From NCBI RefSeq assembly GCF_009659535.1, contig NZ_VJZZ01000002.1:248001-312000 (forward strand): a stretch of DNA of 64,000 bases, given 5' to 3'. This document shows, one piece after another, positions 16,920-19,007 of this stretch; position 1 is the stretch's first letter, and the number at the start of each line of letters is the position of its first letter. Position numbers and translations under genes: made by a program. The notes under the pieces were generated by a model, which was not told the DNA's origin, ran no database searches, and saw only the letters and a list, made by a program, of their open reading frames with translations. This DNA comes from Aggregicoccus sp. 17bor-14 (GTDB lineage: Bacteria > Myxococcota > Myxococcia > Myxococcales > Myxococcaceae).

Positions 16920-17942
16920 TCATCCGACCCGCGCTCGCTCCACCATGAAGCGCACCGCGTCGTTCATGTGCTCCGGGAGGAGCCGCGTGCCGGGGTGGGC
17001 ACGGGCCCAGACGCGGAACACCTCGTCGGCGAAGCCCTGGCCCACGGAGCGCACGCCCCGGAAGTCGAGCACCACCTCCTCGAACTTCTCCATTCCGTGG
17101 AGCAGGCGCTTCGCCTCCGAGCGGGAGACGAAGTCCACGCCCACCTCGAAGAGCTTGATGAAGGCGCGCGAGCGCATGAACGCAAAGTCTTCGTTGCTGT
17201 AGGCATCGAAGACGGCCTTGAGCTCGCGCGAGGTGTCCGTGGCGAGCTCCGCGCGCACGCGAGTGCCCTGGCGCGCAGGCTGCAGCTCTCCGAGCCCCAC
17301 GTCCCCGCGCACGTTGTCGGTCCACCAGCGCAGCGCGCCGCTCTCGACGAGCAGCACGTCCACCGCCTTCGACGAGAAGAACAGGCCCTGCCCGGTGTGG
17401 GCCTCGGGCGCCGTGGTGACCTTGCCCTTGGAGAGCTCCTGCAGCGCCTCGAAGTGGTCGCGCAGGTGCAGCAGCCGGCGCGCGTGCTCGAAGATGCCCT
17501 CGCCCGCGTCCACGACCTCGAATGCCACGCGCTGCGGCTCCTGCTCGAGCAGGACCTCCACCTCGGCCGCACCCGAGTGGTCGATGGCGTTGTTGAGCAG
17601 CTCGGTGAAGGCAAAGTGGAGGATGTCCATGGCGCGCTGGGGAAGCTGGCCGAGCCACGGCGCGCGCCGCTCGAGGTCCTTCCACACCTGGTCTTCCTGG
17701 AGACCCGCAGTGAGCAGCGTCAGCTGCAGCCCGGAGGGCCGCGCGCGCCGGTAGTGGGTGCCGCGTCCTGCGCCCTCCCGCGTCAGGAGCCCTTCCGAAG
17801 CCAGCGCGCTCAGGTGGGCATGTGCGGCTTGTCGGGAGATGCCAGCTCGGCTTCCCACCTCGCCGCTGGTGACCCGGGCCTGCTGTGCCAGGAGCGCATC
17901 CACCGTCTGCTTGACGATTTCCCTGACGTTCGGCCGCCTCAT
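16920..17942 (-). CDS. HTH-ATPase-DUF4325 (STAS-like) regulatory protein
   Basis: The protein has 340 residues in three parts. The N-terminus (about 1-70) is a winged helix-turn-helix (VTSGEVGSRAGISRQAAHAHLSALASEGLLTREG cut into shorter motifs; key residues SRQAAHAHL). The middle (about 90-225) is a GHKL ATPase of the RsbW/HATPase_c type with the N box FTELLNNAIDHSG and DAGEGIF. The C-terminus (about 240-330) has KRLLHGMEKFEEVVLDFRGV and SVGQGFADEVFRVWAR, matching DUF4325, a STAS-like domain. Such fusions combine an anti-sigma-type kinase and an antagonist-like domain with a DNA reader. It is convergent with dinG. Four identical 9-base sites lie at its start, so it probably controls itself. 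The name and target are unknown. Confidence 0.86.
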   Translation of the reverse strand: MRRPNVREIVKQTVDALLAQQARVTSGEVGSRAGISRQAAHAHLSALASEGLLTREGAGRGTHYRRARPSGLQLTLLTAGLQEDQVWKDLERRAPWLGQLPQRAMDILHFAFTELLNNAIDHSGAAEVEVLLEQEPQRVAFEVVDAGEGIFEHARRLLHLRDHFEALQELSKGKVTTAPEAHTGQGLFFSSKAVDVLLVESGALRWWTDNVRGDVGLGELQPARQGTRVRAELATDTSRELKAVFDAYSNEDFAFMRSRAFIKLFEVGVDFVSRSEAKRLLHGMEKFEEVVLDFRGVRSVGQGFADEVFRVWARAHPGTRLLPEHMNDAVRFMVERARVG

Positions 17943-18013
17943 GGACGAATCGTCAAGTAACCGGGGCTAATCGTCAATGAAGCAGGCGTGCGCAGCGCCC
18001 TGGATTGACGATT
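17911..18013 (-). promoter_or_regulatory. Four-site operator candidate AATCGTCAA of the HTH-ATPase-DUF4325 gene
   Basis: Four exact copies of the 9-mer are seen: TTGACGATT at 17911-17919, AATCGTCAA at 17948-17956 and 17969-17977, and TTGACGATT at 18005-18013. The first lies in codons 9-11 of the gene, the next two in the 30 bases before its ATG (17942), and the fourth about 65 bases upstream. The middle two are direct repeats 21 bases apart, two helical turns; the outer two are inverted relative to them at 37 and 36 bases. In the direction of the gene the middle sites read TTGACG, like a -35 box. Autoregulation by the winged-helix domain is the natural reading, but it is inference. Confidence 0.6.
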
Positions 18014-18077
18014 CGGAGTGAATCGCCAGCCTGAACTCCAGATGCGTCGGGCGCGAGCGCCGTCTCCGGCGGCCCGC

Positions 18078-19007
18078 TCAGTGCAGCTTCGCGCCGCCGC
18101 CCTCGGCCTGCGTGCGCGCGAGCCCGCGCGCCTCGCGCAGCCGCTGGGCGAGCGCGCGCGGCACGTACTCGCGCGAGGCCTCGATGCGGCTCGCCACCTG
18201 CGCCGCGCGCACGCCGTCGCCGTGCGCAAGCAGCCGCTGCAGCAGCCGCTCCTGGTTGAGCCAGTTGGCGGGGAAAGGCAGGCCGAGCTGCGCGCCGCGC
18301 GCCTGGGCCTCGGCCCACAGCCGCGCCACGCGCTCGCGGTCGCCCGCGGCGAGCGCGTCCTCCACGAGCAGGCTCGCGGCCCAGTCGGCGCGCAGGCGCC
18401 CGGGGCGCAGGGGGGCGCTGCGCCAGTCCGCCTGCAGGGCCTCCTCGAGGAGCGGGCGCGCCCGGTCGCGCTCGCCCGCCAGGTGCAGCGCCACGCCGGC
18501 GTCCGCCCGGTGCAGCGGGGCGTGGGCGGGGTCGCGCTCGGCGGCGGCGAGGAAGAGGGCGGAGGCCTGCAGGGGACGCCCGGGGCGCAGGCGCTCGGCG
18601 GCGTCCACCACCTGCTCGAGCGGCGCGCTGCGGGCAGCCTCGGGGGTGAGCGCCTCGGCGCGCAGCTCCGCGGCCGTCTCGGCGGCGAGCGCGCGCTCCA
18701 CCTCCTCGCGCAGCGGGGCCACCTCGTCCATCGGCAGGCCGCCTTCCGCCGCGCGCTCCAGCAGCGCGAGCGCCTCCTGGGAGGCGGGCACCAGCTCCTC
18801 CTGCATCACGGTGAGCGCGTCCTGGAAGCGCAGGAAGGCCATCAGCGCGAGCAGGCGCGGGGGCACGGCGCCCCCGGGCCCCTCCGGCAGGTGGTCGCGC
18901 AAGAGCAGCAGCGCGGTGGCCCAGTCCTCGCGCTCGAGCGCGCGCGCGAGCGCCACGTCGTGGTCGTCCGGCAGACCCCAGGGGGGAGCGAAGAGGTGCG
19001 AAGTCAT
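18078..19007 (-). CDS. TPR-like alpha-helical protein of unknown function
   Basis: The protein has 309 residues starting MTSHLFAPPWGLPDDHDVAL, with no signal peptide or membrane span. It is built of paired helices, many with TPR-like spacing: ALEREDWATALLLLRDHL, SALFLAAAERDPAHAPLHRA, GVALHLAGERDRARPLLEEAL and DALAAGDRERVARLWAEAQA. This suggests a cytoplasmic scaffold or adaptor. I recognise no named family. The start has a weak ribosome site. The gene is on the same strand as the GNAT to its right and the HTH-ATPase gene to its left, with 74 bases to the GNAT stop. Confidence 0.75.
   Translation of the reverse strand: MTSHLFAPPWGLPDDHDVALARALEREDWATALLLLRDHLPEGPGGAVPPRLLALMAFLRFQDALTVMQEELVPASQEALALLERAAEGGLPMDEVAPLREEVERALAAETAAELRAEALTPEAARSAPLEQVVDAAERLRPGRPLQASALFLAAAERDPAHAPLHRADAGVALHLAGERDRARPLLEEALQADWRSAPLRPGRLRADWAASLLVEDALAAGDRERVARLWAEAQARGAQLGLPFPANWLNQERLLQRLLAHGDGVRAAQVASRIEASREYVPRALAQRLREARGLARTQAEGGGAKLH

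Follow-up and report, generated by a model that had tools for sequence, protein, structure and literature searches.

Four copies of a nine-base word as probable autoregulatory half-sites at the gene of a winged-helix, ATPase and DUF4325 protein

Four exact copies of the 9-mer AATCGTCAA span 103 bp at the start of the gene for a three-domain regulator in the 64,000-nt stretch of DNA analysed here (the window). We consider them to be probable operator half-sites of this adjacent gene, to which its own winged helix-turn-helix (wHTH) domain would bind, with negative autoregulation as the outcome. That repeated sites of this kind are the docking sites for the family's control of its own gene appears very probable from the comparison of relatives presented below. 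The start-to-start spacings of the four copies are 37, 21 and 36 bp, and the two inner ones, C and B, form a direct repeat of 21 bp (Table 1).

Table 1. Features of the regulator gene and of the arrays located outside its family
Feature	Position	Strand	Description
Three-domain regulator gene	16920..17942	(-)	340 aa; winged HTH residues 6-67, SpoIIAB-like HATPase residues 68-237, STAS-like DUF4325 residues 276-330
Promoter (intergenic) region	17943..18077	(-)	135 bp separating the gene from the upstream ORF on the same strand; from ORF ends
Site A	17911-17919	(-)	exact 9-mer; inside the ORF, nt +24..+32, reverse, codons 8-11 (E-I-V-K)
Site B	17948-17956	(+)	exact 9-mer; -14..-6 to ATG, forward; coding strand TTGACGATT; covers -10 position
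Site C	17969-17977	(+)	exact 9-mer; -35..-27 to ATG, forward; coding strand TTGACGATT; covers -35 position
Site D	18005-18013	(-)	exact 9-mer; -71..-63 to ATG, reverse; inverted relative to site C
Array outside family (L066)	1501-1521 (G005:C269)		same 9-mer
Array outside family (L068)	1501-1551 (G035:C29)		same 9-mer
Array outside family (L070)	1501-1546 (G005:C870)		same 9-mer

An earlier, sequence-only reading had reported four identical sites at this place and regarded chance as an unlikely cause; the exact positions were confirmed, and the judgement on chance was borne out. In the window, which has a GC content of 73%, 0.01 copies of the word are expected, and four or more copies appeared in none of 100 shuffles. 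It is also the sole 9-mer of the window with at least four copies inside 103 bp, and no comparable cluster was produced in 20 order-2 Markov simulations. The word is not equally common at random places of the genome (6,922,639 bp): it occurs there five times, four of them at this gene, and the fifth copy lies on contig 5, within the coding frame of a dehydrogenase-like protein (ARIVNVASRAHQ). The reversed word, used as a control, has no copy in the whole genome. With up to one mismatch allowed, 129 scattered matches were obtained, and no second array was present among the 100 of these that were listed.

The ATG at 17942 is supported as the start codon because the frame is open for just eight codons further upstream and orthologues start there too. 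All three domains, wHTH, HATPase and DUF4325, lie within one chain, for which Pfam gave PF14213 (E 5e-15) and HATPase_c_2 (E 1e-7), with no receiver domain among the matches. Beyond weak HTH or ATPase matches, PADLOC, NCBIfam and PHROGs contained no named family for this protein, and a sequence search of the PDB returned a weak ArsR-type match and nothing else. In the AlphaFold2 model (pLDDT 82.6), the winged HTH consists of helices 6-20, 26-33 and 37-49 with a two-strand wing, its structural matches covering residues 5-67, and the best solved structural match of the ATPase domain is SpoIIAB (Z 13.5, 135 residues, rmsd 2.9, over residues 68-237). The N, G1 and G2 boxes of the Bergerat fold are present, with E114/N118, D145-x-G-x-G and H182-x-G-x-G invariant in 12 proteins. 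The window's genome encodes a second DUF4325 protein (L037, G000:C5:304999-305169), which is a single-domain protein of 118 aa with no sites upstream.

Relatives in genome and viral contigs were found with alignments, the window protein alone as a query having given none; no relatives were found in phage or plasmid records. Among the genomes searched from the same taxonomic family, the only full-length gene was the window's own, and its nearest full-length relatives come from other families of the order, from elsewhere in the phylum, from two Planctomycetota and from proviral contigs. The window protein is 51% identical to a planctomycete copy (L090), as compared with 48 and 43% for relatives from the order. 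Since the gene is absent from the other same-family genomes searched and is slightly closer to the planctomycete copy, it was probably acquired horizontally.

The sites are kept before orthologous and related genes. In the closest full-length orthologues (two Myxococcota and two Planctomycetota), the same or near-identical sites occur before or just inside the gene. Thus, L090 has TTTACGATT, TTTACGATT and TTGACGATC at 21-bp steps, L089 has TTGACGATT, TTGACGATG and TTTACGATG, L008 contains TTGACG(A/C)T some ten times, often at a distance of 22 bp, and L007 bears TTTACRAT-type words, TTACAATAAGTTTACGATTAGTTTACAATA, in 11-bp steps. A second group of relatives, wHTH-DUF4325 proteins without the ATPase, is encoded in about seventeen Myxococcaceae MAGs. 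Between -300 and +60 the exact 9-mer is present in 15 of the 17 wHTH-DUF4325 genes, with 37 exact copies in 6,120 bp compared with 2 in 126,107 bp of flanking DNA. This flanking DNA of the same loci served as the control for these counts, the reversed word being too lenient as I-V-N codons favour the forward word. In most genes of this group the upstream sites fall between -45 and -290, away from the core promoter, and at one locus (L087) none was present within 300 bp. Palindromic fusions of the half-site were observed as well, upstream of L073 at -208..-76 (CTGACGAATCGTCAT) and of L014 at -131..-40 (AATCGTAAACGTTACGATT).

The copy located within the gene is also retained. An inverted exact copy starts at ORF nt 9 in 13 of the 17 wHTH-DUF4325 genes and is homologous to site A (REIVKQ / MREIVNQ). 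In all 13, the codon preceding ATC at this site ends in A (GGA, GAA, GCA), while such codons make up 5.4% of the codons of these genes; this bias argues that the in-gene site is maintained as a DNA word, beyond the peptide alone. L095 carries an exact AATCGTAAA shortly after its start, there read in another frame. DNA looping, which the sequence-only reading had thought the outermost, in-gene site to allow, found no support: positioned just 24-32 nt after the start (in most relatives 9-17 nt), this site resembles a roadblock or an additional half-site rather than a remote partner for a loop.

Spacing of the repeats was assessed by a motif-blind count. In the upstream 160 bp of each of 29 non-redundant full-length genes, among them proviral ones, pairs of 9-mers with one mismatch at most were counted for all distances between 8 and 60. 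Only the distances of 21 and 22 bp stood far out, being found in 10 and 12 of the 29 sequences with 0.7 expected for each, and this was matched in none of 200 simulations. A pair at 21 or 22 bp occurred in 20 of the 29 family upstreams, the window's included; among control upstreams, taken from other ORFs at the same loci, the count was 11 of 191 (Fisher P 4e-14). The P values are optimistic, since the sequences are related and the counts not independent, and start codons were picked by eye. At this threshold, a 21/22-bp repeat was lacking in the remaining 9 full-length genes. One might argue that the repeats are core promoter elements only, because similar -35 and -10 hexamers (TTGACA/TACAAT) yield repeats of 21-22 bp; this geometry fits, and L126 indeed reads TTGACA-N17-TACAAT. 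We find such an explanation highly improbable, given the low number of control upstreams with these repeats, the presence of three or more copies, of inverted copies and of in-gene copies, none of which belong to a promoter, and the shift of the repeat word with the HTH. Moreover, a sigma-70 consensus scan of 17850-18120 found no promoter, though myxobacterial promoters may depart from the consensus.

Different HTH domains tend to be accompanied by different repeated words. TTGACGATT or TTTACRAT words go with many SRQA-type helices and the TATAGTTAA word with SLNTVYRY, and other words are found in L098 (GATGTTGCTAAA), L147 (AGTAGCAAGT) and L128 (ACARTGCAGG). This covariation is weak (rho 0.25). 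When the C-terminus was controlled for, word similarity correlated with HTH identity (partial r 0.23, permutation P 0.004); the corresponding value for the C-terminus, controlled for the HTH, was 0.02 (P 0.45). This tracking of the HTH by the repeat word across relatives supports the proposal of an operator for the gene's own winged-helix protein, from which we infer direct binding and autoregulation, and we regard the operator reading as strong. Relatives in which word and HTH covary while the spacing is fixed also offer a ready set for studies of HTH specificity.

A search of 147 genomes of the class for exact direct 9-mer pairs within 51 bp gave 10 places, spread over 8 genomes. Of these places, 7 are at this gene family; all 8 genomes also have a DUF4325 gene. 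The 7-mer pair TTGACGA-N12-16-TTGACGA was non-specific as a search pattern (45 places in 35 genomes, mostly with a spacing of 21, which we read as in-frame coding repeats), and the 9-mer pair was therefore used. One genome (G021) has 48 copies of the 9-mer, scattered and without arrays. The remaining three pair places, two in G005 and one in G035, are in or beside intergenic regions of other genes, which include those for a secreted outer-membrane-like protein and for a protein beginning MARRVLVLHG; these arrays are possible further targets of the regulator in these two genomes. The same arrays near non-family genes would be expected if an unlinked DNA-binding protein used the sites, the gene being one of its targets among others. 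We give this idea very little credence, because G035 and G005 carry the family gene as well, other clusters in the window's genome were not seen among the matches listed, the repeat word tracks the HTH of this very protein, and the sites go along with the gene in other phyla and in proviral contigs.

How binding might affect transcription is indicated by the position of the sites. In 16 of the 17 wHTH-DUF4325 genes, TAnnnT begins 12-14 nt ahead of the start codon, which suggests a leaderless transcript. The window has GACGAT at this position, as a part of site B, and 17 bp separate it from the TTGACG of site C farther upstream; sites C and B probably sit at the -35 and -10 of a leaderless promoter. 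In the proposed mechanism, the half-sites (TTGACGATT) would be bound by the gene's own winged HTH, the protein probably being dimeric or oligomeric on the direct pair C-B, with D and A as flanking sites. The 21 bp between C and B equal two helical turns, which would place both copies on the same face of DNA. With C and B over the promoter elements and A just past the start, binding should block RNA polymerase, hence negative autoregulation, while the SpoIIAB-like ATPase and the STAS-like domain of the same chain would toggle DNA binding on a signal. On the other hand, the protein might recruit RNA polymerase to its own promoter, making a self-sustaining switch with no repressor loop. The wHTH-DUF4325 genes have a separate -10-like TAnnnT well downstream of most sites, and many-site arrays suit cooperative activation. 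Nevertheless, such positive autoregulation seems unlikely, as the repeats of the window, L007, L126, L135 and L136 immediately precede the start, where the core promoter is likely to be, and the in-gene site just past the start is conserved.

An operator with repressive action would resemble several known systems in part. Winged HTH proteins of the OmpR/PhoB type bind head-to-tail direct repeats in one-turn steps, and the M. tuberculosis PhoP operator has direct repeats of a 7-bp motif with a 4-bp spacer (PMC4832192). Some relatives described here use 11-bp steps; the window, however, has 21 bp (two turns) and inverted flanking sites, and its protein possesses an ATPase and a STAS-like domain instead of a receiver domain. 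The occurrence of an ATPase that best matches SpoIIAB together with a STAS-like domain recalls SpoIIAB/SpoIIAA and RsbW/RsbV, but in the window protein both are in one chain with a DNA-binding domain, and there is no known sigma factor partner. The serine that is phosphorylated in SpoIIAA presumably has no serine as its counterpart in the window protein. ArsR, MarR and IclR autorepressors share the wHTH fold and an operator over their own promoter, but differ in domain make-up; their operators are usually palindromes. A toxin-antitoxin or another operon-linked autoregulator was considered and rejected in view of the lack of a conserved partner gene at the wHTH-DUF4325 loci, where no neighbour was common to more than three of the other 19 loci.

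Proteins with DUF4325, which many bacteria and archaea encode, are unstudied; our literature search found no description of the 9-mer or of a DUF4325 regulator, the name DUF4325 being merely mentioned. The repeats give this family a concrete DNA target, predict autoregulation, and offer a handle on what the fused ATPase/STAS unit senses. We tentatively suggest, as a possibility that we hold with some doubt, that these proteins are horizontally moving orphan regulators, in which a SpoIIAB-like ATPase and a STAS-like domain, together a partner-switch-like unit, are fused to a winged HTH. Their own gene would be the main or only target, word and HTH would co-evolve at a fixed two-turn spacing, and the whole would form a self-contained switch of chromosomes and proviruses. 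Some two dozen relatives (L121-L148) sit in contigs classed as viral, and proviruses seem to carry regulators of the wHTH-HATPase-DUF4325 type. In one proviral contig (L129, 4728-5819), the same ATPase-DUF4325 part is found with an HTH that looks XRE-like and replaces the winged one, and the repeats are absent.
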